Below are positions 16,962 through 27,732 of a stretch of DNA of 64,000 bases, one piece after another (the first letter of the stretch is position 1; every line of letters starts with the position of its first letter). The notes below the pieces were generated by a model that worked only from the letters and a program-made list of their open reading frames with translations, ran no database searches and was not told where the DNA came from. Location: NCBI RefSeq assembly GCF_029023725.1, contig NZ_CP119075.1:3157501-3221500 (forward strand), written 5' to 3'. Position numbers and translations under genes: made by a program. Origin of the DNA: Synoicihabitans lomoniglobus (GTDB taxonomy: Bacteria; Verrucomicrobiota; Verrucomicrobiia; Opitutales; Opitutaceae).

Positions 16962-18662
16962 ATGCTTCCCTTACCCCATTCCCGACCAGTGAGCCTCACG
17001 GGTGTGATCTCCCTGTTTTTAACCTGTTCGCTCAGCGCCGCGACTTTCTGGGTCTCGCCCGACGGAGACGACATGGCGGCGGGCACGCGCGACCATCCCT
17101 GGGCCACGCCCCAACACGCGGTCACCGCCGTGATGGCGGGAGACACCGTTTACTTTCGACATGGCACCTACGCGTTGGACGGTCCGATCCTGCCCCGTGT
17201 GTCGGGCACCGCCGAAGCGCCTATCACACTCGCCGGGTATCCCGGAGAATCCGCCATCTTCGATGGGTCAGGTTTTCACCACGCCGATGAGACCTACAAG
17301 AAAGGACTGCTTCATCTCGAAGGCGTGGTCCACTACGCCCTGAAAAATCTCCACGTGCGCAACAGCTGGCACGGCTTCGGAATCAAGGTCTCTGGCCATG
17401 CTTCGCATATCGACATCCTCGAGTGCACGTCTGCCGAAACCTTCGGACCGGGCATCGGTTTCTGGAATTCTGAATTCATCCGCGTGATGTATTGCGAAGT
17501 CACCGGGGCCAATACCAACCGTCGGCGGGTCTATGGTGATCCCACCACCCAAGCCGCCCATGAAGGCATCAGTAGCGGCGGATCCCGCCATTTCGAAATC
17601 GCATACAACCACGTGCACCACTGCGACAAGGAGGGTATCGACGTTAAGGAAGCGAGCGCCCACGGCACGGTGCATCACAACTACGTGCACCACCTGCCCC
17701 GCCAGGGCCTGTATGCTGACGCGTGGTTCGGCCTGTTGGAAAACGTCACCTTTCACCACAATGTCGTGCACGATTGTGAGTGGGGCGTGGCGATTAACAC
17801 CGAGGGCGTGGGGGCTGACCTGCGAGGCGTGGCCGTTCATCACAACCTGCTCCACGACAATCGCGGCTCCGGCATTCACTCTGGGTTGTGGGGAGTCAAC
17901 GGACCACGCAGCGATCTGCTCATCGCGCACAATACCCTCTACGCCAACGGCAGTGCGGGGCAATATTCCGGTCCCACCGGAAACATCGACATCCGTTCAC
18001 CGCAGAGCCAGCGAGTCCGTGTTTTCAACAATCTTTGCGTCGCCGGCGGCACGTTTGAACTCGGGGCGTTCGCCGATGCCGCTACACCCGCAGGTGCCGC
18101 GCTGCTCGCCGCACGAGAAGTGAGTTTTTCCCACAATTTCATCGGGCAGTTCGTTCCCATTTCTGCCACCGATGTCGCTGGTATCACTCCCCGACAACGG
18201 GAACGCTATCACCGCGCCTATGCGCTGGCCGGCGACAATCCCGTGTTTGGGCACGCCGAGTTACAGGATCCCGACCGCGGCAACTTCTGGCTCGGCGCCA
18301 CGTCAGCCGCGCGTCGCGCGGGTTTGATCGACCCGGAGTTTCACGGCCTCGGCCAAACAGAACCTCCCGATCTGGGGGCCTTTGACTTCGGTCAGGACTT
18401 GATCCCATTACCTGCACCCGCCATCGAACACATCCTCGATGACGTCTGGCGCGTGGTTCACCGCACGCAACCAGGACGCGCCACCATCCGCCAGCGCTCA
18501 GACGACCAAGGCGAGACCTGGACTTCCGCAGCCGTTCCAGCCGTCGGCCAAGGCATTCCCGATATCCACTACTTTCGCCACTCGGATAACGCCCCGTTCC
18601 CCCAGTTCCGCTACACCGTGGTAACGGATCCCGCTGAAAGGGTCAGGTTTAAACATTTGTAG
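16962..18662 (+). CDS. Right-handed parallel beta-helix protein, C-terminus altered by insertion
   Basis: Secreted protein of 566 residues with signal peptide (about residues 1-27) and an N-terminal WVSPDGDD...GTRDHPWATP segment typical of polysaccharide-binding beta-helix proteins. The central region has stacked HbH repeats rich in NHVHHCDKEGIDV-type turns (residues 115-340), as in pectate-lyase-like folds. No lyase catalytic set could be assigned. The last residues (ERVRFKHL) are read from the left end of the RAYT element, which begins at 18637, so the native C-terminus has been replaced or slightly extended. Confidence 0.82.
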   Translation: MLPLPHSRPVSLTGVISLFLTCSLSAATFWVSPDGDDMAAGTRDHPWATPQHAVTAVMAGDTVYFRHGTYALDGPILPRVSGTAEAPITLAGYPGESAIFDGSGFHHADETYKKGLLHLEGVVHYALKNLHVRNSWHGFGIKVSGHASHIDILECTSAETFGPGIGFWNSEFIRVMYCEVTGANTNRRRVYGDPTTQAAHEGISSGGSRHFEIAYNHVHHCDKEGIDVKEASAHGTVHHNYVHHLPRQGLYADAWFGLLENVTFHHNVVHDCEWGVAINTEGVGADLRGVAVHHNLLHDNRGSGIHSGLWGVNGPRSDLLIAHNTLYANGSAGQYSGPTGNIDIRSPQSQRVRVFNNLCVAGGTFELGAFADAATPAGAALLAAREVSFSHNFIGQFVPISATDVAGITPRQRERYHRAYALAGDNPVFGHAELQDPDRGNFWLGATSAARRAGLIDPEFHGLGQTEPPDLGAFDFGQDLIPLPAPAIEHILDDVWRVVHRTQPGRATIRQRSDDQGETWTSAAVPAVGQGIPDIHYFRHSDNAPFPQFRYTVVTDPAERVRFKHL

Positions 18663-19681
18663 TTTTAAGCAGTCGATAGACTGAATCGTCGATCTCTCCA
18701 CGCTTCATTCGACCCACATACGTGCTGACCGCTTCCGGTCGGCCCATGCTCAATGAGTCGCCCAACCACCGATTGTCGGCTTGCTCTCGTTCCTTCAAAA
18801 ATCGCGCGATCGCAACTTTCCAACCCGCACTCTTGGGGTCGTTGCGCACGTTCTCCTCATTCTTCCGCAATGCATTCAGGCAACGTGCCCGCATATCCTG
18901 TTGCCGCTGATTCCGAACTTCCCTGGCCCCGACGATGCCCCATGCCCGCGGGGAATCCGGCACATCGGGGGACTCAAGTAACGCCGCTTTAAAACGGTCA
19001 GTCCCCAGCGCCCATCCTTTGCTCATGTTAGTATAGGCTTTGGATTTTCCAGCGGGGCCGACGGCGACCTGCCATGTTAAATAGTCGAGGTAACACCGTC
19101 GACCCGTCGGCGTGTCCGCCAACTCACCCGCCTCCACCAACGCCGTTTCCAATACCATGAACTCGCGCCGCCGAGTGGGGCGCTGCAAATACCAATAGCT
19201 ACCGAACCTCAACCCCTCGAGCCCTTCAACGGTGCAAACACCGGCACGCACCGGATTGAGATGGATATAGTCGCATACCTGCCCCAACGCACCAGCTCGC
19301 TCGACCACCAAAGCCTTGTAGCGCCCCTGAAAGACGTGGCCGTGTTCGCTTCGCAGTTTGTTGAACCGATTGGCAAACGTCGCCTGCAGCCACTGCATGC
19401 CGGTAACGAGGTTTCCCTCCGGGGTTTCAAGGGCGAGATGGTAATGATTCCGCATCACAACAAACGCATGAAGCCGCCAACGGTAGGTTTCACACGCCTC
19501 AAACAAGCACGCCTCGAAAGCCAGCTTCGCCCCCTCTGTGCGAAAAATGTTGGTCCGGTAGTTCCCCCGGTTGATCACATGATAACACGCGCCGGGAAAT
19601 TCGAGTCGGTGTTTTCGAGGCATTGTCCGGATATCAAACTCAATACCTGCCTAAATTACAATTGTTTAAACCTGACCCTTT
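18637..19681 (-). mobile_element. RAYT-type transposable element with 19-bp inverted ends
   Basis: The element is bounded by a perfect 19-bp inverted repeat: AAAGGGTCAGGTTTAAACA at 18637-18655 and its complement at 19663-19681. It contains one transposase gene whose stop codon lies inside the left repeat. The left flank is the 3' part of the beta-helix gene and the right flank is a truncated FRG-domain gene, so the element joins two unrelated genes. This suggests a deletion or rearrangement rather than simple insertion. Confidence 0.75.
18649..19623 (-). CDS. REP-associated tyrosine transposase (Y1/IS200-like)
   Basis: Single-strand transposase of 324 residues. The N-terminal signature HRLEFPGACYHVINRGN is typical of the family. 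The HUH metal-binding motif is NHYHLALE (about residues 58-65). The candidate catalytic tyrosine lies in DYIHLNPVRAG (about residues 136-146). The C-terminal half is less conserved. RAYTs act on REP palindromes and usually have no long-range mobility. The stop codon falls in the element's terminal repeat. Confidence 0.9.
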   Translation of the reverse strand: MPRKHRLEFPGACYHVINRGNYRTNIFRTEGAKLAFEACLFEACETYRWRLHAFVVMRNHYHLALETPEGNLVTGMQWLQATFANRFNKLRSEHGHVFQGRYKALVVERAGALGQVCDYIHLNPVRAGVCTVEGLEGLRFGSYWYLQRPTRRREFMVLETALVEAGELADTPTGRRCYLDYLTWQVAVGPAGKSKAYTNMSKGWALGTDRFKAALLESPDVPDSPRAWGIVGAREVRNQRQQDMRARCLNALRKNEENVRNDPKSAGWKVAIARFLKEREQADNRWLGDSLSMGRPEAVSTYVGRMKRGEIDDSVYRLLKTTNV

Positions 19682-19975
19682 TTGCGCCCTCAGCAGCCGA
19701 GTAGGCATTCCGTGGTGCTGAGCCAGCATCAACCACTCCCATTCGTTCTTCGGCTCCGATCTGAGATGAGCTATCGCTCTTCTCTTAAAATCGGCAAACA
19801 TCGTCTTCTCAATACTAGTGAGTGGTAAAGCGCCCTCCTTCCACTCACGTGCGACACCGGGGATTAAGTCGTATTCGGGCCGGGAAACACCGCGATAGAG
19901 GAATGAAAGCGGTTGCTCCGCGTGCGCCAGAAATTCGGCGAGCGTCTTTGTTAGAAAGTCCGCTATAGGTGCCAT
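19682..19975 (-). pseudogene. FRG-domain protein truncated by the RAYT element (cassette D)
   Basis: The gene starts at ATG 19975, 11 bases after the start of its cassette (TTAGGC). About 97 native residues remain and include the FRG-domain motifs SFLYRGVSRPEYDLIP and LAQHHGMPTRLL. In intact FRG proteins the last motif continues with a DW.NP-type segment, but here the frame enters the RAYT end at 19681 and stops at 19640. FRG domains occur in proteins of unknown or defence-related function. The cassette's own attC has been lost. Confidence 0.8.
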
Positions 19976-19980
19976 GGTTA

Positions 19981-20041
19981 GCCTAACGACTCAGCTCAGA
20001 GGCGGCGACTTGTCGCCGTTCTCTGAAGCGGCTGGTTCTGC
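19981..20041 (-). other. attC site of cassette C
   Basis: A 61-bp imperfect palindrome on the - strand. It starts with R'' box GCAGAAC and ends with R' box GTTAGGC, the canonical GTTRRRY core. Inner arms CAGAG/CTCTG and CGGCGAC/GTCGCCG form a hairpin with a two-base loop, and CAGC/GCTG lie next to the core boxes. The R'' box is the exact complement of GTTCTGC at the start of the same cassette, as expected when a circular cassette inserts at an integron. Confidence 0.82.
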
Positions 20042-20436
20042 TCTGTTTTTTCGTCCTTTGGAATCAGTCGAGGTAAGAGCAGATGTGATCCGCTGAAAAG
20101 AACTGTTCCAGCGATTAAAACAAAGGTGGGGATTGCAAAGGGGCGTTCGTCCAGATTCTGCATCAAGATCAATAGGCTCATCCAGGCAACGAAGCACAGA
20201 ATCGTAACCGAAAGTCGTATCGCTCTCCGGCTCTGAAGAACGGAGGTCACACAACTGAGTAATGAAACAATGACGAACATCCAAAAACCTACGATGAAAG
20301 GCAATTGGCCGAACCATGTCGGCGGAAACCGACCGAGATGCCTAGCAATGGTAAGAGCTAGCCACCAGAGAACGTAAAACAACACGATTTGCCCGGCACT
20401 GACAGCACAAGCTAGTAGAACGCGTCGACCTCTCAC
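19996..20436 (-). CDS. Four-helix membrane protein, integron cassette C
   Basis: Gene of 146 residues starting at GTG 20436, two bases after the cassette core box GTTCTGC (20445-20439). The frame is open further upstream, but that part crosses the preceding attC. Four hydrophobic segments are predicted at about residues 6-30, 44-66, 74-93 and 101-122. No family is recognised. The last 13 or so residues (QPLQRTATSRRL) are encoded by the attC site itself. Cassette genes of unknown function with few transmembrane helices are common in integrons. Confidence 0.75.
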   Translation of the reverse strand: MRGRRVLLACAVSAGQIVLFYVLWWLALTIARHLGRFPPTWFGQLPFIVGFWMFVIVSLLSCVTSVLQSRRAIRLSVTILCFVAWMSLLILMQNLDERPFAIPTFVLIAGTVLFSGSHLLLPRLIPKDEKTEQNQPLQRTATSRRL

Positions 20437-20438
20437 TT

Positions 20439-20504
20439 GCAGAACGTCAGAGCTCAGCCGCGACTGCCAGCGGAGCTGGCGGTCGTTGGCTGCGGCGGTT
20501 TGAT
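20439..20504 (-). other. attC site upstream of cassette C
   Basis: Probable attC of a lost cassette, 66 bp, ending with core box GTTCTGC (20445-20439). A long hairpin occupies 20455-20492 with arms CAGCC/GGCTG, CGAC/GTCG and GCCAGC/GCTGGC separated by single unpaired bases. The best R'' candidate is ATCAAAC (20504-20498), but its cassette start (expected GTTTGAT) is not present because the IS91-like element begins next to it. GTTCTGC departs from the GTTRRRY consensus at one position. Confidence 0.6.
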
Positions 20505-20610
20505 GAACGAAGCCGCTGCGCGGCGCAGTGAGGAGTGAGGGGTATGACGTTCGGGACGCACGGCGGTTGACGATGTATTTTGGTCCGCCAATCGCAAGAC
20601 TGGCGGTGCT

Positions 20611-21555
20611 ATGTCCAAAAACAAATCCACCCGTAAAGGTCGCGACTTCCGTCGTGACGTCACCGAACAGTATCAATCGTTAGTGCGCTTCGATGAGATG
20701 CTCAAGCTGCGAAGCATGGCCTTCTCCACCCGCTCGGAGTATGTGCGCTACGTGCGCAAACTCGCGCAGCACGTGAAGCGCGATCCGGCCGAGTTGAACG
20801 AGGCGCAGCTTCGCGCCTACCTGCTGCACCTCAAGGAGGCGCACCACTACAGCGGCAGCACGATGCGCACCGCCGTGTGCGCCATGCGCAACTTCTACGG
20901 CAAGTTACTGGGCCACCCGTGGAAGCTGTTCGACCTGGTGCGCTCGCCCGATCGCAAAACCTTGCCCGCGGTGCTCACCCGCGCCGAGGTGGCGCGGTTG
21001 TTCGCGGCGATCACCGAACCTCGGTTTCGCACCATCCTGCGACTCATCTATGCGTGCGGGTTGCGTATCCGTGAAGCAACGACACTAGAGGTGACCGATA
21101 TCAAGCGTGAGCCGTGCCGACTGCATCTGCACCACACGAAGGGGCAAAAGGAGCGCTACGTGCCGCTGCCCGAATCGATGCTCGAGGAGTTGCGCGCCTA
21201 CTGGCGCACGCACCGGCATCCGAAGTGGGTGTTCCCTGGCACCGGTCGGGGCTGGCGCGAGGGGCCCGGTGCGCGCGAGCGCCTGGCTCTCGCGTCCGAA
21301 CCGATGGGCGTGGGTTCGATCCAAAACTGCCTGCGGTTGGTCGTGCCGGTGGCCAAACTGCCCAAGGGCACCCACCCGCACACGCTGCGTCATTCGTATG
21401 CGACGCACCTGCTCGAAGAGGGCGTGAGCATCCGCTTGATTGCGCAGTTCATGGGCCACTCCTCCATTGAAACGACCGCCATTTACACGCATCTGACCGC
21501 CGTCAATGAAGCCGCCGCTCGCGCGGCGGTGAGTCGTTTGCTCGACGGCATTTAG
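20611..21555 (+). CDS. Tyrosine recombinase accompanying IS91-like transposase
   Basis: Site-specific recombinase of 314 residues. The N-terminal SAM-like DNA-binding domain spans about residues 25-110. The catalytic domain carries the Arg of GLRIREA, HTLRHSYATHLLEEG (HxxR), LMGHSS-type FMGHSSIETTAIYTHL (His and catalytic Tyr) and the beta-strand Lys region TKGQKERYVPLP. It lacks the extra segment between motifs that marks integron integrases, so it is not IntI. Its close link to the IS91 transposase downstream matches known IS91-like modules that carry a phage-type integrase. Confidence 0.88.
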   Translation: MSKNKSTRKGRDFRRDVTEQYQSLVRFDEMLKLRSMAFSTRSEYVRYVRKLAQHVKRDPAELNEAQLRAYLLHLKEAHHYSGSTMRTAVCAMRNFYGKLLGHPWKLFDLVRSPDRKTLPAVLTRAEVARLFAAITEPRFRTILRLIYACGLRIREATTLEVTDIKREPCRLHLHHTKGQKERYVPLPESMLEELRAYWRTHRHPKWVFPGTGRGWREGPGARERLALASEPMGVGSIQNCLRLVVPVAKLPKGTHPHTLRHSYATHLLEEGVSIRLIAQFMGHSSIETTAIYTHLTAVNEAAARAAVSRLLDGI

Positions 21556-21563
21556 TTAAATCC

Positions 21564-22691
21564 GTGTCGGCCTTGGCCGAGTGGCTCGGGGCGCAAGCCC
21601 CGGGCTACGCGTGCACGCATGCCATCAGCCCGGCGCAGCGCCGGGCGTTGGCGGCGATCGCGCGGTGTCGGACGCCCGAGATGGGCGGCCGCGTGTATCG
21701 CTGTGCCCACTGCACAAAGCACGACTTCGCCTACCATAGCTGCCATCACCGCTCGTGTCCGCGGTGCGGCGGGGCCCGCACGGCGGCATGGACGCAGCGC
21801 CAGCGGGACCGCTTGCTGCCGGTGCCATATTTTATGGTGACCTTCACACTGCCCGCACCGCTGCGCGCGATCTTCGCGGCGGAGCCGAAGGTGATGATCG
21901 ACCTGCTCTTTGGCGAGTCGGCCCGCGCGCTGCAAACGATCGCATCGTTGCCCAAACACCTCGGAGCCGATCTCGGCATGACCGGCGTGTTGCACACGTG
22001 GGGACGCCAAATGCAGTTGCATCCGCACGTGCACTTCATCGTGCCGGGCGGTGGTTTGGCTGAAGATGGAACCGCATGGCGCCATACCCGCAAACCCGAG
22101 TGGCTCGTGCCGTCTGCGCCGGTCGCGGCGCGCTTCCGCCAAGGCATGGCGGCGGCGCTACGCGTTGCGTTGCCTGGAAGGCACGCGCAAGTGCCCGACT
22201 CGTGCTGGCGGCAACCGTGGGTGGTCGACATCCAGCACGTCGGCTCGGGCGAAGCGGCGATCAAATACCTCGCTCGCTACGTGCAGCGCACCGCCATCAG
22301 CGATGAACGTATCCGAACCATGGATGCGAAGACGGTTCGCTTTGGCTACCGCGACAGTGCGAGTGGTGAGCACAAGGAATGCACGTTGGATGCGGCTGAG
22401 TTCATGCGGCGATACTTGCAGCACGTCTTGCCGACCGGAGTCCACCGCGTGCGCCACTTCGGCTGGGAGCACCCGGCCGCGTGGCGACGCCGACGGGTGG
22501 TCGAGACCTTGCTCGCCGTGGAGATCGTTGTGCGCCCGAAGCAGGCTGAGGTGGACCCCGAAAATTGGACATGCGGGAAGATTAAATTCAAAAGGAGTCC
22601 AACATGTCGAAAAAACGACGTTCATTCAGTGCCGAGTTCAAGGCGAAGGTGGGGCTGGAAGCCCTCAAAGGAATCGAGCCGATCCATGTGA
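21564..22691 (+). CDS. IS91-family transposase, 3' end replaced by IS3 insertion
   Basis: Rolling-circle transposase starting at GTG 21564. The N-terminal zinc-binding region has CAHCTKHDFAYHSCHHRSC and PRCGG. The HUH motif is LHPHVHFIVPGGG. The two catalytic tyrosines are four residues apart in KYLARYVQRTAIS. Native sequence runs to 22546 (about 327 residues); the remaining codons are read from the left end of the IS3 element. Joining the flanks of the IS3 element would give a stop soon after (QAIG, then TGA), so the lost C-terminus may be very short. Confidence 0.87.
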   Translation: MSALAEWLGAQAPGYACTHAISPAQRRALAAIARCRTPEMGGRVYRCAHCTKHDFAYHSCHHRSCPRCGGARTAAWTQRQRDRLLPVPYFMVTFTLPAPLRAIFAAEPKVMIDLLFGESARALQTIASLPKHLGADLGMTGVLHTWGRQMQLHPHVHFIVPGGGLAEDGTAWRHTRKPEWLVPSAPVAARFRQGMAAALRVALPGRHAQVPDSCWRQPWVVDIQHVGSGEAAIKYLARYVQRTAISDERIRTMDAKTVRFGYRDSASGEHKECTLDAAEFMRRYLQHVLPTGVHRVRHFGWEHPAAWRRRRVVETLLAVEIVVRPKQAEVDPENWTCGKIKFKRSPTCRKNDVHSVPSSRRRWGWKPSKESSRSM

Positions 22692-22903
22692 TCGCGCAGC
22701 GCTACGAAGTGCATCCCGTGCAAGTGAGCCAGTGGAAGAAGGAGGTAACGCAGAAGCTGCCGGAAGTCTTCGCGAAGCCCTCGGTGCGGGTGCGGGATGA
22801 GATTGAACGCGATCGCAAGGAGAAGGATCTCTACGCGGAGATTGGCCAACTGAAGATGGAGCTCGATTGGCTCAAAAAAAAAGTTGGCCCGCTTGGGGAC
22901 TGA
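22604..22903 (+). CDS. IS3-family transposase OrfA
   Basis: DNA-binding protein of 99 residues with a helix-turn-helix at about residues 8-45 (FSAEFKAKVGLEAL, VHPVQVSQWKKEV) and a C-terminal leucine-zipper-like stretch (EIGQLKMELDWLKKK). A ribosome-binding site (AAAAGGAG) lies upstream of ATG 22604. It overlaps OrfB by 20 bases and contains a run of nine A (22874-22882) at the overlap. OrfB is in the +1 (equivalently -2) frame, so the usual -1 slip of IS3 elements would not join the two. Confidence 0.88.
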   Translation: MSKKRRSFSAEFKAKVGLEALKGIEPIHVIAQRYEVHPVQVSQWKKEVTQKLPEVFAKPSVRVRDEIERDRKEKDLYAEIGQLKMELDWLKKKVGPLGD

Positions 22904-23747
22904 GGAGCGCCGCCGCATGATCGAGACCGAACATCCAAAGTTGAGCGTGGCCCGACAGTGCAAGCTGATGGAGCTGCCTCGCTCGACTTTTTACCACCAC
23001 CCGAAGCCACCGCCGGAAGCGGATCTGGCGCTGATGCGTGTGATCGACGAGACCTACCTCGCGTTCCCTTTCTTCGGCAGCCGTCAGATGACCCGGTGGC
23101 TGCAACGCGAGGGGTATGAGGTGAACCGCAAGCGCGTGCGACGGCTGATGCGATTGATGGGACTGACGGCGATTTACCGCCGGCCGAGCCTGTCAAAGAA
23201 GGCCGCCGCCCATCCGATCTATCCGTATCTGCTGCGCGGCATGACGGTCGAACGATCCAACCGGGTGTGGGCGACCGACATCACCTACATCCCAGTGAGA
23301 GGTGGGTTCGTTTACCTGTGCGCGGTGATCGACTGGCACAGCCGGATGGTGCTCGCGTGGGAACTGTCGAACACGCTGGACGCGTCGTTTTGTGTGCGGA
23401 CGGTGGCGCGGGCGATGGCGAGCTACGGCACGCCGGAGATCTTCAACACCGACCAAGGCTGCCAGTTTACCAGCGCAGAGTTTACCCATCCGCTGCTGGC
23501 GGCCGGCGTGCGCCTGTCGATGGACGGCAAGGGCCGCTGCCTGGACAACGTCTTCATCGAGCGTCTATGGCGCAGCGTGAAATACGAAGAGGTCTACCTG
23601 CGCCGCTACGAGACGATGGTCGAGGCCCACGCGCACCTCGATGCCTACTTCCGGTTCTACAACGACCGACCCCCGCACTCCGCTCACGGAAGCCAAACCC
23701 CAGCCGAAGTCTACCACGCTAACACTCCCTCCGTCGCAGCCGCCTGA
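22884..23747 (+). CDS. IS3-family transposase OrfB (DDE)
   Basis: Catalytic part of the transposase, 287 residues from a TTG codon at 22884; a later start or frameshift fusion with OrfA is also possible. It has an HTH_21 region followed by an rve-type integrase core. The DDE triad is visible in WATDITYIP, FNTDQGCQFTS and IERLWRSVKYEEVYL. The frame appears intact to the stop, so the copy may be functional. Confidence 0.9.
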   Translation: MARLGTEERRRMIETEHPKLSVARQCKLMELPRSTFYHHPKPPPEADLALMRVIDETYLAFPFFGSRQMTRWLQREGYEVNRKRVRRLMRLMGLTAIYRRPSLSKKAAAHPIYPYLLRGMTVERSNRVWATDITYIPVRGGFVYLCAVIDWHSRMVLAWELSNTLDASFCVRTVARAMASYGTPEIFNTDQGCQFTSAEFTHPLLAAGVRLSMDGKGRCLDNVFIERLWRSVKYEEVYLRRYETMVEAHAHLDAYFRFYNDRPPHSAHGSQTPAEVYHANTPSVAAA

Positions 23748-23948
23748 CGGCGGCAATCAGAGCGGGGAGGAAGCTGAGCTTCCTCCCCTGCACCCCTCCA
23801 TTTACTTTTATCCTTGGTCAGCAAACCCAGAAACCATAACTAAAAATCCGCCCGGCCTGTCCAACCGATGGGGTCCACTTCACATCGGATGAAGATCATC
23901 GCGGGTGCCCGGGATCCCCCAACCCCACAAACCACTCCCATGAAACGG

Positions 23949-23975
23949 GCGGTGGATGGCTTCGCCCTCCACCGC
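23949..23975. repeat. Strong hairpin, probable IS91-like terminus
   Basis: GCGGTGGA-T-GGC and GCC-C-TCCACCGC pair around a TTC loop. It lies between the right end of IS3 copy 1 and the remnant of the lipoprotein cassette's attC. Ends of IS91-family elements contain hairpins, so this probably marks the origin or terminus of the IS91-like element. The surrounding 23883-24045 has no gene. Confidence 0.45.
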
Positions 23976-23998
23976 TGGTCCCCGCCAGGGTTCCTGCT

Positions 23999-24051
23999 AA
24001 ATAACGAGTTTTATCACTTGATACTACCTAAGGAAGATCGATTTGTTAGGT
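23999..24051 (-). other. attC site of cassette B (partial or degenerate)
   Basis: The R'' box ACCTAAC (24051-24045) is canonical and exactly complementary to GTTAGGT at the start of the same cassette. It overlaps the stop codon of the lipoprotein gene. The hairpin is weak and the R' box, GTTATTT at 24005-23999, does not fit the consensus, so the distal half may have been changed by the adjacent IS91-like insertion. Confidence 0.55.
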
Positions 24052-24501
24052 CCTGTTCTGTTCATCGTAAAGTGCCTGCATGTAAGCGGTGGGGTCGTCG
24101 ATGGAAGGGAAACCCTCACAGCGCACCTGGCCAGAAATCGAATCGACATAAATCGGTGTGCTCTCGTGTCCTCCACGGCCTACCCAAGTCGGAATCATCC
24201 AATCACGTCCTTCCTTCACGGGAAGCGCAATGTCACTGCACACGCCCTGCGTTTCGGAAAGGTAGAGCCGCGCCATCACCCACGCTTCGAATTGGTCTAT
24301 CCCGTCCGAAACTACGACCAGCTTCTCGACCTCTTCCTCTTCAACGACCCCCTTCAGGCGATACGCAAACTCCCAATACTGCTTTTCGTCTGGGGTCTCC
24401 GCATTCGCGATGTGATCACGATACTCGGAGTGGAACGGCGCTTCAGGCGCGCAACCAGTTCCGACAAGCGAAAGTGCTAAAACTGGAATTAGTGTTTTCA
24501 C
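24046..24501 (-). CDS. Small lipoprotein, integron cassette B
   Basis: Protein of 151 residues starting at GTG 24501, which overlaps the cassette core GTTAGGT (24506-24500). The N-terminus (MKTLIPVLALSLVGTGC) is a lipoprotein signal peptide with Cys17 as the likely lipidated residue. The mature part is acidic, with an EEEEVEKLVVVSDG stretch and no recognised domain. The stop codon lies in the attC R'' box. Start and end therefore both fit a one-gene cassette. Function is unknown. Confidence 0.8.
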   Translation of the reverse strand: MKTLIPVLALSLVGTGCAPEAPFHSEYRDHIANAETPDEKQYWEFAYRLKGVVEEEEVEKLVVVSDGIDQFEAWVMARLYLSETQGVCSDIALPVKEGRDWMIPTWVGRGGHESTPIYVDSISGQVRCEGFPSIDDPTAYMQALYDEQNRT

Positions 24502-24570
24502 CTAACGCCAAAGTGTGATCGGGCCTGAGATGGTGAGACACGGTCGTCTCTTATTTGGTGGGTTATGGGT

Positions 24571-25482
24571 TTAGTTGCGGGTTAGGCAATCGGGTTGTGC
24601 ATTGCCCCCCATGGGGGGCAAAATTTTTGCCTCCGCCTGCATCGGGCTCAGGTAGCCCAGAGAGGCGTGTTTGCGGTATCGGTTGTAGAAGACTTCGATG
24701 TAATTGAAGACGTTGGCGCGGACTTGGGCTTCGTTGGCAAAGACGTGGTCGCGCACGGCGGCAGTTTTGTAGCGACCAAAGAAGGACTCCATCGCGGCAT
24801 TGTCGTAGCAGTTGCCCTTGGCGCTCATGCTCGGGTGCATTTTCAGCTTGGCCAGCAGGCGTTGGTAGCGATCCGCGGCGTAGGTGCTGCCCCGGTCGCT
24901 GTGATGCACGATGCCGGCGCGGACTTTGCCGCGGGTTTGCACGGCGTTTTCCAACGCGGTGCAGACCAGGGCGGTGTCGTTGCGATCGGAGACGCTCCAG
25001 CCGACGATGCGTCGGGTGCATAGATCCATCACCGTCGCCAGATAACACCAGCTCTCGTCCGTGCGCAGATAGGTGGTGTCGGCCACCCAGATCTGATCGC
25101 GATGCTCCGGTTTCCCCAACTGCTTGAGTAAGTTGGGATGGTAGCCAAACAGATGCTCGCTGTCGGTGCCCATCGGCTTGAACCGGGCATGGGAGCGGCC
25201 GACCAACTCCAACTCGTGCATCAGGCGCAGGGTGCGATCACGGCCACAGTCCACGCCCTGCTCACGCAGATGTTGGTGGACCGGCCGGTAACCGTAGGGG
25301 CCGCAAGCCCGACGCACGACTTGCTCGATCACTGGCTTGATCGCTTCGTCCTGCTCTCGGCGGACCGAGGGTCTGGCCTCGATCCAGCGGTAGTATCCGC
25401 TGCGCGAGACGCCGAGCGCTTCGCCCATCTCGGCCACGTCATACCTGTGCTGATGTTTTCGCATGAACACGAAGCGGCTCAC
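24571..25482 (-). CDS. IS3-family transposase OrfB (DDE)
   Basis: Catalytic subunit of 303 residues starting at GTG 25482, which overlaps the TGA of OrfA (GTGA). An N-terminal HTH_21 domain (YGYRPVHQHLREQG) precedes the integrase core. The DDE residues lie in WVADTTYLRT, VHHSDRGSTYAA and NAAMESFFGRYKTA. The frame is complete, ending about 55 bp before the left inverted repeat. Confidence 0.92.
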   Translation of the reverse strand: MSRFVFMRKHQHRYDVAEMGEALGVSRSGYYRWIEARPSVRREQDEAIKPVIEQVVRRACGPYGYRPVHQHLREQGVDCGRDRTLRLMHELELVGRSHARFKPMGTDSEHLFGYHPNLLKQLGKPEHRDQIWVADTTYLRTDESWCYLATVMDLCTRRIVGWSVSDRNDTALVCTALENAVQTRGKVRAGIVHHSDRGSTYAADRYQRLLAKLKMHPSMSAKGNCYDNAAMESFFGRYKTAAVRDHVFANEAQVRANVFNYIEVFYNRYRKHASLGYLSPMQAEAKILPPMGGNAQPDCLTRN

Positions 25483-25772
25483 TCGTCCTTGGCGAAGTAG
25501 CTCACCGTTTTTTTTAGGATCTCATTGATCCGCTTTTCTTTCGCCAGTTGCTTGCGCAGCTGGTCGACCTCGGCGGCCAGCTGGGTCGGGCTCGACTTCG
25601 CGTGCGGCGGACTCGCCGCATCCATCTCGGCCAGTTGCTCGCGTTTCCAGCGGTATAGCAGACTCGGGTTCACATCCAACTTCCGGGAGACCTCCGGGGC
25701 ACTCAGCCCGTCCATGATCATCAGCCTGGCGGCTTCGCGCTTAAACTCGGCGCTGTGTCGGTTTCGTTTCAC
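25479..25772 (-). CDS. IS3-family transposase OrfA
   Basis: Protein of 97 residues with a transposase_8-type helix-turn-helix (HSAEFKREAARLMI, VNPSLLYRWKREQ) and a coiled C-terminal part (QLAAEVDQLRKQLAKEKRI). It overlaps OrfB by four bases. A run of eight A near the end of the gene could serve as a slippage site, but the GTGA coupling would already allow OrfB translation. Confidence 0.9.
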   Translation of the reverse strand: MKRNRHSAEFKREAARLMIMDGLSAPEVSRKLDVNPSLLYRWKREQLAEMDAASPPHAKSSPTQLAAEVDQLRKQLAKEKRINEILKKTVSYFAKDE

Positions 25773-25882
25773 TTTGGGTTTCTCTTTCTAAGAGATTCCC
25801 GTGTCCATTTTTCTCAGGCCCGATCAGTGTGGCGCGGCGCGATAGCGGCGTTGCCACCACTGTCTTGTTCGATCATTGGTGT

Positions 25883-26503
25883 TTAGTCCAATGAAGTTTC
25901 CGTGAGCGCTGATTTTCTCTCTTCGTCCATGATTTCAGCAGACTCGATCAATCCATGGTCTTCAGATTCTCGCAAAGCTTTCAATGGGTATCCGATTAAT
26001 TCCCGAACACCTGTGCGAATTTCTTCTTCAGGGACACCTACCTCCCTAAGAATAGCGATCTTGTCTCGAAGGTTTTTTATCTGAAGCTCTTCAATTTTCA
26101 GATTATTTTCTCTTTCTTCCTGTCCTTCTCTATATTTTTTATCTTTCCTCCTTTCGTGGCTGTCTTTAATCCATTCTCTGATTTGCTGCAGTGGATTTAA
26201 ACTTCCTAAAAACTCCCAGAACCCTGGAGATGAAAATGAAGCTGCGGTTAATTCAAGAGGCGCAGCCTCTTCAAGGGCTTCTGCAACCGATTTCTTGAAG
26301 TCAAAGTTATTACTGGCTTTCTCGCCGAAAATTGACCGTAGCAATCGTTCCTCTGGGGCGAGTTCCTCTGGAGCGTTTTTCGCCTTACCGACAACTCTTT
26401 CTAGAACATACAAACCAATATACAGATCGTTAATCGAATTGAGTAAGTTTGTGACGGCTGGAACCGAACCAGTTTTTTCTGCGAGGATACGTAGCTTTCT
26501 CAT
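25883..26503 (-). CDS. Hypothetical protein, integron cassette A
   Basis: Protein of 206 residues from ATG 26503, nine bases after the first cassette core box. It is the attI-proximal cassette. No family is recognised. Residues about 110-155 are highly charged and probably coiled coil (SHERRKDKKYREGQEEREN). There is no signal peptide or clear membrane segment. The gene is visibly richer in A and T than the surrounding chromosome, as expected for an acquired cassette. The stop codon lies 10 bases before the attC R'' box. Confidence 0.75.
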   Translation of the reverse strand: MRKLRILAEKTGSVPAVTNLLNSINDLYIGLYVLERVVGKAKNAPEELAPEERLLRSIFGEKASNNFDFKKSVAEALEEAAPLELTAASFSSPGFWEFLGSLNPLQQIREWIKDSHERRKDKKYREGQEERENNLKIEELQIKNLRDKIAILREVGVPEEEIRTGVRELIGYPLKALRESEDHGLIESAEIMDEERKSALTETSLD

Positions 26504-26511
26504 AATTTGTT

Positions 26512-26580
26512 ATCGAACGTTATATAGTCACAATAAATTGTGACCTAATGGGGGCAAAAGCACAATAAATTGGACATTGG
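26512..26580. promoter_or_regulatory. Probable attI and cassette promoter region
   Basis: The first cassette junction core GTTCGAT lies at 26518-26512 on the - strand. Next to it are a perfect palindrome GTCACAAT-AA-ATTGTGAC (26527-26544) and two direct copies of CACAATAAATTG (26529-26540, 26561-26572). Direct repeats beside the core are features of attI sites, where extra integrase molecules bind. A TATATA sequence (26526-26521 on the - strand) could be a -10 box for cassette transcription, but no strong -35 is evident. The intI start follows at 26610. Confidence 0.6.
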
Positions 26581-26609
26581 CTAGGATTTTTTGTTTTCTT
26601 CGCGCCATT

Positions 26610-27155
26610 ATGGCGCATCCAAAGAATGGTGATGGGAGGCCCAAAGGGGAGCGTCGGGAGCCTGAGGCGAGTCCTTGGGTTCGCCGATTGGTCGAGGCAC
26701 AGGCAGTTCATTTGACTGCGAAACAACTGGGGTGGTGGTCGTTTCATTTGGAAAGCTTTCTGCGATACTGTCGCAATCGTGGTGATCAGGTCGAGGCGCG
26801 AGTGCTCGCCCGCGATTTTTTCGATGCTTTGTCAGTTGAACAGTTTGGCGAAGGGACTGCGTATCGGGTGGATCAAACCAAACAGGCGCTGACGGTGTTT
26901 ATTCGCGGCATCGAAAACTGGCATTGGGAAAGGTCCGATGCTGGGGCGTGGATACCGCGTTTTCGCATCAAGCCGCCGGTGGATCACGACGCCTCGACCA
27001 TGGATGGTGCGACGGGGGCAGCGTCGACCTCAGGCGTTTCACCTGCAGCCGGATCGACGGGACCAGCGGTTTCGGTTTCCCGGCAAAACTGGCAGAACGC
27101 CCTGAGCACGGCACTCCGGGTGCGCCACTATGCCCTGCGGACGGAAAACACGTAT
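26610..27155 (+). pseudogene. intI: Integron integrase, truncated
   Basis: From ATG 26610 the frame runs with an N-terminal DNA-binding region (WVRRLVEAQAVHLTAKQLGW, then WWSFHLESFLRYC) and a linker of low complexity. It then enters the integrase signature WQNALSTALRVRHYALRTENTY, close to the start of known IntI core-binding domains. Native sequence ends near 27155; after that the frame passes through unrelated DNA to a stop at 27320. The catalytic domain with the Arg, HxxR and Tyr residues is absent. The call relies on this signature plus the divergent cassette array; the long N-terminal extension is unusual. Confidence 0.78.
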
Positions 27156-27732
27156 GGAAAGAAAATGGGGTCAGGCCTTGGGGCTTGGGGTTCGTCGGTG
27201 GCGGGTTCCTGCGCCTCGGCGAGGCGCAGGCGGAGGAGCAGTTGTTCCTTGGCGCCTGGCGCGAGTTGGTCGGATGCAGAAAAGGGATCGGGCCTTACGC
27301 GACAGCCCGTCACGGGTTGACCCGTCACGACCGGCTTGGTGATCGCGTGGGGGCGCGCCGTCGTTGGTTCGGGAGAATTGCTAGCAATTCCGTCCGATTC
27401 GTTTCGGAGGGATGGCGCGGGTTCAGCCGCAAGTAAGGTGGCCAAAGATGGAATCATTCCGCAGGCAATGAAATCTGAAGGAGAGGGTAGTCACTCGCGG
27501 CGGTGGCCAGACCAGCGGAGCAGGTGTCGTGACGACAGCGAGTTACACGCGATAGCGCGAGCTCGGAATTGGGCGAGGCGATCAAACAGCAGCAGTCGCG
27601 TGCGAACGCTCTGCCCTGCCCTGCGTTACTCCAGCCTGCGACCAGCGACGGTGACTTCACCCATAGGTCCACCATCCTCAATGCGACGACCCGAAGTCGG
27701 CCGAGCGGGGCTGCTGGTGGTTACCATCCGAA
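27156..27732. other. Non-coding stretch at the integron's right edge with REP-like hairpin
   Basis: No gene is supported here. The intI frame breaks next to GGGGTCAGGCCTTGGGG (from 27167), which shares GGGTCAGG with the RAYT element ends. A perfect palindrome follows at 27208-27230 (CCTGCGCCTCG-g-CGAGGCGCAGG), REP-like in form. The remainder up to the GH5 gene shows only short open frames without recognisable motifs and may be decayed insertion-sequence or integrase DNA. Confidence 0.5.

Follow-up and report, generated by a model that had tools for sequence, protein, structure and literature searches.

The window analysed here, by which the whole 64-kb stretch of DNA is meant, lies on the 5.93-Mb chromosome (C1) of Synoicihabitans lomoniglobus (genome G000) and carries a damaged integron: a fragment of the integrase gene intI, an attI region, four divergent cassettes and three attC sites, broken by several insertion sequences (IS). 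Judged from the sequences, this locus is probably a truncated second copy of an integron which, by successive insertions, became a cluster of attC sites lacking an integron-integrase (CALIN), one of its guests belonging to a group of IS91-family elements with their own tyrosine recombinase (IS91+Int) that targets the R'' core of attC sites. Taken by itself, the damaged integron is ordinary; the IS91 guest is unusual. Comparison of the copies places the IS91+Int group mostly at integron attC sites, where it occupies one position in one orientation, and establishes at the level of sequence its position in the attC, its orientation, the resupply of an R'' box and the recurrence across distant hosts; the mechanism proposed below we infer.

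The truncated integron and its intact counterpart

The intI fragment (26610..27161, + strand) comprises 184 of 478 codons, i.e. an N-terminal extension and the start of the IntI core. It contains WQNALSTALRVRHYALRTENTY and lies within the + strand open reading frame (ORF) 26577-27320, whose ATG is at 26610 and which is integron-like as far as about 27155-27161, beyond which it continues into unrelated sequence of the repetitive extragenic palindrome (REP) type (GGGGTCAGGCCTTG). An intact 478 amino acid homologue is found on the same chromosome at C1:21175-22611 (L004:11175-12611), in an integron composed of intI, attI and array (C1:21-33 kb) at a distance of 3.16 Mb from the window copy. The fragment is 98% identical in amino acids to the product of C1:22060-22611, and window positions 26513-27155 are 98.9% identical to the intact integron over 643 bp, the nucleotide homology stopping at 27155. 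Upstream of this breakpoint the coding part of intI shows four base differences, two silent and two amino-acid changing, with the frame intact. The homologue in a genome of the same genus (G007) is 70% identical, and the 98.9% identity to a copy 3.16 Mb away therefore indicates a recent duplication. The window integron is probably, on this comparison, a truncated second copy (partial duplicate) of the chromosome's own integron.

The initial annotation of 19682-27155 had described a sedentary integron that lost its integrase activity and turned into a CALIN. The outcome was seen correctly, in that the local intI is dead, its homology ending at codon 184, and a cassette cluster remains; the locus has three attC sites, at least two without a neighbouring complete integrase being what defines a CALIN, and an intI fragment persists beside them. 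The history has to be changed, since the locus is a partial duplicate and an intact intI exists elsewhere. Decay in place of the integrase of an independent sedentary integron would equally leave a truncated intI with attCs and cassettes, but it is unlikely in view of the near identity of attI and the 5' part of intI to the distant copy, set against 70% within the genus, and of a fragment that is still in frame with two amino acid differences before its breakpoint. As the intact intI is present elsewhere on the chromosome, its integrase may act in trans on the window cassettes.

A better match of the protein at 26610 to a non-integron tyrosine recombinase had been named as an outcome that would speak against an integron. 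The fragment alone matches no Pfam or NCBIfam family. Its intact homologue scores 387 bits with TIGR02249 (cut-off 265) and 255.8 bits against the VchIntIA structure 2a3v versus 103 against XerA, which favours IntI. The N-terminal extension of about 110-160 residues (window 26610-27070, also in the intact copy) is predicted by structure modelling, with high confidence, to be a mostly helical domain, and roughly half of 80 related IntIs carry such an extension, the rest lacking it. Foldseek with the model of the intI fragment found no relative. Another intI, near 5.632 Mb, is cut as well, its frame entering an IS3-type end ahead of the catalytic tyrosine region; it belongs to a second integron (C1:5628-5633 kb, L027), one of whose attCs holds an IS110 copy.

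Between intI and the first cassette lies the attI/leader region (26513..26609, - strand), with the crossover G^TTCGAT at 26518/26517. Window and intact integron agree up to ..TATATAACGTTCGA, after which the first cassettes differ. Divergent from the + strand intI, and separated from it by attI as had been described, one-gene cassettes follow on the - strand. Cassette 1 (25867..26517) carries the gene 25883-26503 for a 206 amino acid protein with no Pfam match, cassette 2 (24045..24505) the gene 24046-24501 for a protein of 151 amino acids with a lipoprotein-like signal, cassette 3 (20035..20444) a small membrane-protein ORF at about 19996-20445, and cassette 4 (19640..19986, boundary GTTAGGC) an FRG-domain gene (19640-19975) which has lost its 3' end and whose product matches PF08867 at residues 25-95 (E 2e-16). 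The 5' boundaries of the first three, GTTCGAT, GTTAGGT and GTTCTGC, complement the R'' boxes ATCGAAC, ACCTAAC and GCAGAAC of the same cassettes. In a mobile cassette both sequences come from the same molecule, so this complementarity is expected; it is exact in 10/10 cassettes, i.e. three of three in the window and seven of the intact array, a score reached in 0 of 200,000 permutations and far above chance.

Because a scan of the window against Rfam at gathering thresholds gave no match, a covariance model of our own (R1) was built from 19 aligned attCs of the intact array and related genomes, none of them from the window. Compensating changes in its stem clearly exceed those of shuffled and slid controls, and the model recovers class 1 attCs of an Escherichia coli plasmid absent from its training set. 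An earlier energy-based scanner, which provided the seeds, lost several true sites, among them attC2 of the window, because its R' pattern was strict, and its p-values are secondary to R1. R1 finds attC3, which is intact (19981..20041, - strand, 65.5 bits, E 9e-14), attC2 (match 20439-20508, - strand, 55 bits, E 3e-11) and attC1 (match 25819-25873, - strand, 31 bits, E 2e-5), and nothing else at E<=1 across the 64 kb; an absence of such matches would have counted against the integron. What is left of attC2 at 20439..20501 (- strand) is spacer, L'', L' and R', with a new R'' (GTTCATC) taken from the IS91 ter end. The 5' part of attC1 (25827..25873, - strand) runs from R'' ATCGAAC to L', and its remainder, split off by an IS3, is at 24500-24515. 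Across the genome R1 finds 26 attCs in six places, with a uniform strand inside each place.

IS91 elements with a recombinase at attC sites

The IS91-family element of the window (20502..22546, + strand) starts with the ter end GATGAACGAAGCCGC at 20502 and has lost its right (ori) end. It encodes a tyrosine recombinase of IntI/Xer-like type (20611..21555, + strand, 314 amino acids) and an IS91-family HUH (Y2) transposase (21564..22546, + strand), the 3' end of which was removed by an IS3. The transposase belongs to the IS91 family according to NF033538 (E 3e-109, 365 bits, cut-off 125) and Y2_Tnp (E 5e-52). For the recombinase the best profile is TIGR02249 at 179.1 bits, under the cut-off of 265 that marks an integron integrase, with the match split in two after profile position 180; against structures it scores about equally with the XerA-like 4a8e (98.7 bits) and the IntI 2a3v (93.6 bits). 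It has long been established that a tyrosine recombinase is encoded by some IS91 elements, and in this genome every IS91 transposase found has a recombinase gene alongside.

Relatives were gathered, from family, phylum and a plasmid collection, by similarity of the recombinase protein alone and not by integron context. In most of the readable copies an attC adjoins the left (ter) end, entry being between its spacer and R''; the hosts include Verrucomicrobiota of other genera and families, Salinivibrio, Photobacterium and E. coli. This end reads GTTGAAC or GATGAAC, then (G/C/T)AAGCCGCT, then a short hairpin, and it provides the attC with GTTCAAC or GTTCATC as a replacement for its R'' box. The right end reads GCTTGTTCAAC (with GTTCATC in this genome and GTCCAAC in most copies from Photobacterium), followed by a stem-loop that usually contains unpaired bases and by a short spacer, and it abuts the resident R'' on the other strand (GTTRRRY, once GATCGGC). 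In most copies the box of the right end complements the left end. No target duplication is found in the relatives and their right end stands beside GTT(C), as is characteristic of IS91, most clearly in the aadA1 attC described below. R1 detects an attC at the ter end in six of the seven copies of this genome and, elsewhere, in G075 (4/6), G109, G308 and E. coli, with weak matches in G082, G151 and G231; in two G075 copies the spacer is instead followed immediately by an IS110-like element. Another attC cluster of this genome, at C1:989-1009 kb (L023, L024), holds two tandem IS91+Int copies, and no intI match was reported there.

The E. coli case is the IncC plasmid RCS41_p (L174, NZ_LT985243.1:8296-17165), where insertion of the element into the aadA1 attC separates aadA1 from qacEdelta1. 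The empty class 1 aadA1 attC reads GTCTAAC|AATTCGTTCAAGCC; in RCS41_p GTCTAAC is at one end of the element and AATTCGTTCAAGCC at the other, and the element contributes GTTCAAC. The insertion point can be read here because the empty aadA1 attC is well known. A second near-complete copy of this element was found neither in 20,395 E. coli records nor in the plasmid collection. A Vibrio-type attC adjoins the element in Salinivibrio and on one plasmid of Photobacterium; in Salinivibrio it was identified by structure (p 0.003, energy-based scanner). The flank in Photobacterium damselae matches repeats resembling the Vibrio cholerae repeat (VCR), present many times over in 225 plasmid records, mostly of Vibrio, and among the matches listed for it most start at query base 6, i.e. 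the AAC of the element box.

An earlier candidate for the IS91 right end, a 157-bp segment (GATCTTCC..), was recognised by comparison of copies as an IS110 end, the true right end being ..CTCAGG|GTTCGAC; with this correction the idea of Tn916-like coupling sequences for the unequal spacers on the two sides was dropped.

In the mechanism we propose, the right end, whose R''-like box, stem-loop, spacer and GTTRRRY resemble an attC, would steer a circular intermediate of the element to the R'' core of an attC. Recombination would take place at this core, on the side opposite to that used by IntI. The resident attC would be left with an R'' box, and because it keeps one the integron may tolerate the guest. 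In its widest form, which we put forward tentatively, the proposal is that IS91+Int elements are self-propelled integron cassettes. They would combine a right end resembling an attC with a left boundary complementary to it, would encode a recombinase of their own besides the rolling-circle transposase, and would recombine with the R'' core of a resident attC opposite IntI's side, in integrons ranging from those of Verrucomicrobiota to class 1 resistance integrons, with a usable attC regenerated each time.

Several observations weigh against the joint reading given at the outset. Three elements are at sites which do not look like attCs (G000 at 4902.8 kb, G139 and pHAU01 of Herpetosiphon), the flanks in Photobacterium ganghwense, Photobacterium toruni and G309 are ambiguous, and the assessment of G330 was visual. 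R1 gives the right ends no attC score, so that their reading as attC mimics rests on layout. Of the four copies of this genome that retain both ends, two have a mismatch at one position between ter box (GTTGAAC) and ori box (GTTCATC), and in Photobacterium most ori boxes are GTCCAAC. Some copies within one array may share a history and not be independent events. As for the duplicate, its source may be copying within the genome or gain from a close relative, and the shared stretch is 643 bp only.

The same arrangement could come about if the HUH transposase alone picks its target through the single-stranded attC hairpin, the tyrosine recombinase merely resolving or circularising. HUH enzymes work on single strands and hairpins, and the right end and the target have in common a layout of hairpin, short spacer and GTT; on the other side, an IntI/Xer-like recombinase gene adjoins the transposase in the annotated elements. 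We regard this as a possible account, short of a probable one. Capture by the host IntI, with the elements being no more than gene cassettes, is suggested by the complementary left GTTGAAC and right-end box GTTCAAC and by the attC-like layout of the right end, both cassette-like, but the copies examined are inverted at R'', whereas IntI would give the array orientation at R' or attI, and this origin is quite improbable. Least credible, and nearly negligible, is an ordinary IS91 that needs only GTTC by its right end and struck attCs for their GTTC: IS91 does insert beside GTTC/CTTG and most right ends abut GTT, yet the window alone has 559 GTTC sites (both strands) while six of the seven ter ends of the genome lie at one or other of its 26 attCs, the sequences next to right ends include GTTAGAC, GTTAAGT, GTTATGC and GATCGGC, which follow the attC R'' pattern and not GTTC, and the point and orientation are identical in distant taxa.

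Other elements that broke the locus

Mobile elements interrupt two of the three attC sites of the window, and a REP-transposase unit cuts the array at its outer end. Several of the junctions between the one-gene units, taken initially as attC cores, are transposon insertions, and the span 19682-27155, taken as integron throughout, contains besides its cassettes the IS91+integrase element, an IS110 end and two copies of IS3.

Inside attC1 sits an IS3-family insertion sequence (24516..25826, - strand; transpos_IS3 E 4e-92) with terminal inverted repeats and a 3-bp target site duplication, GTG. attC2 is interrupted twice, by an IS110 left end past the spacer and by the IS91 element at the R'' core. 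The IS110-family left-end remnant (23883..24039), between the attC2 spacer and L'', is 97-99% identical to three other copies, and an attC spacer adjoins the end in 4/4 copies, i.e. at a fixed position in the attC. An IS110 transposase adjoins the copies at 23, 32 and 5630 kb, with PF01548 and PF02371 and a score of 134.2 bits for NF033542 (cut-off 140), so that the family is confirmed as IS110 only. A second IS3-family copy (22547..23882, + strand) has no target site duplication and connects the IS91 transposase with the IS110 end, and for this reason an IS3-mediated deletion between IS3 copies may have taken place here.

The REP-type sequence that truncates intI starts with AATGGGGTCAGGCCTTG and extends over 27162..27330 (+ strand, extent approximate), the intI homology ending where it begins. 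The genome contains 7 occurrences of its 14-mer motif at <=1 mismatch, and 92 bp are 87% identical to a place near 1.301 Mb. At the opposite end, cassette 4 is cut by a REP-associated tyrosine transposase unit (18632..19686, - strand; gene 18649-19623), which is bounded by a 34-nt inverted repeat with the ends GGGTCAGGTTTAAAC and whose product matches NF047646 at E 4e-18, under the cut-off of that model. A motif resembling these ends, GGGGTCAGGCCTTG, stands at the intI breakpoint. The unit has many partial relatives in the genome and abuts ORF 16962-18662.

Relation to known systems

In the IS91+Int group a recombinase goes together with an exact, repeated target, the attC R'' core, in distant bacteria as well as in a class 1 resistance integron. 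Should the proposal be true, integrons would host a class of transposons which enters cassettes without destroying the attC, cassettes might have a possible route of leaving by rolling-circle transposition, and there would be a handle on an integrase-like enzyme reading the side of attC that IntI leaves unused. In the literature searched, with subscription papers mostly outside it, no report of a general attC-targeting rule for such elements was found, the sole precedent being ISShvi3, and no role for the IS91 tyrosine recombinase.

The window locus resembles known integrons in its divergent intI, its attI, its attCs with R'', L'', L' and R' boxes and bulged stems, and its single-gene cassettes. 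It differs from them by the truncated duplicate intI with an intact intI elsewhere in the genome and by the splitting of two of its three attCs.

The closest relatives of the guest are IS91 elements with an accessory recombinase, such as ISShvi3 of Shewanella, an IS91-like element which we take to carry a tyrosine recombinase; common to them and the window element are the NF033538 Y2 HUH transposase and the recombinase gene upstream of it. ISShvi3 was once reported beside an attC, with a new cassette made (PMC9229058). Compared with it, the IS91+Int elements described here add a documented position in the attC, a fixed orientation, the resupply of R'' and a spread over distant taxa.

Insertion sequences which target attC are known as the IS1111-attC group, according to PMC12444791, citing Tetu and Holmes 2008. 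The IS110 end of the window is likewise in an attC, as are all four copies; unlike IS91+Int, these elements have a DEDD transposase instead of HUH transposase and recombinase, and they enter between spacer and L'' and not at R''. Group IIC-attC introns also target attC, usually opposite to the cassette orientation (PMC9229058). They share this targeting with IS91+Int, but they are retroelements and their proteins are unrelated.

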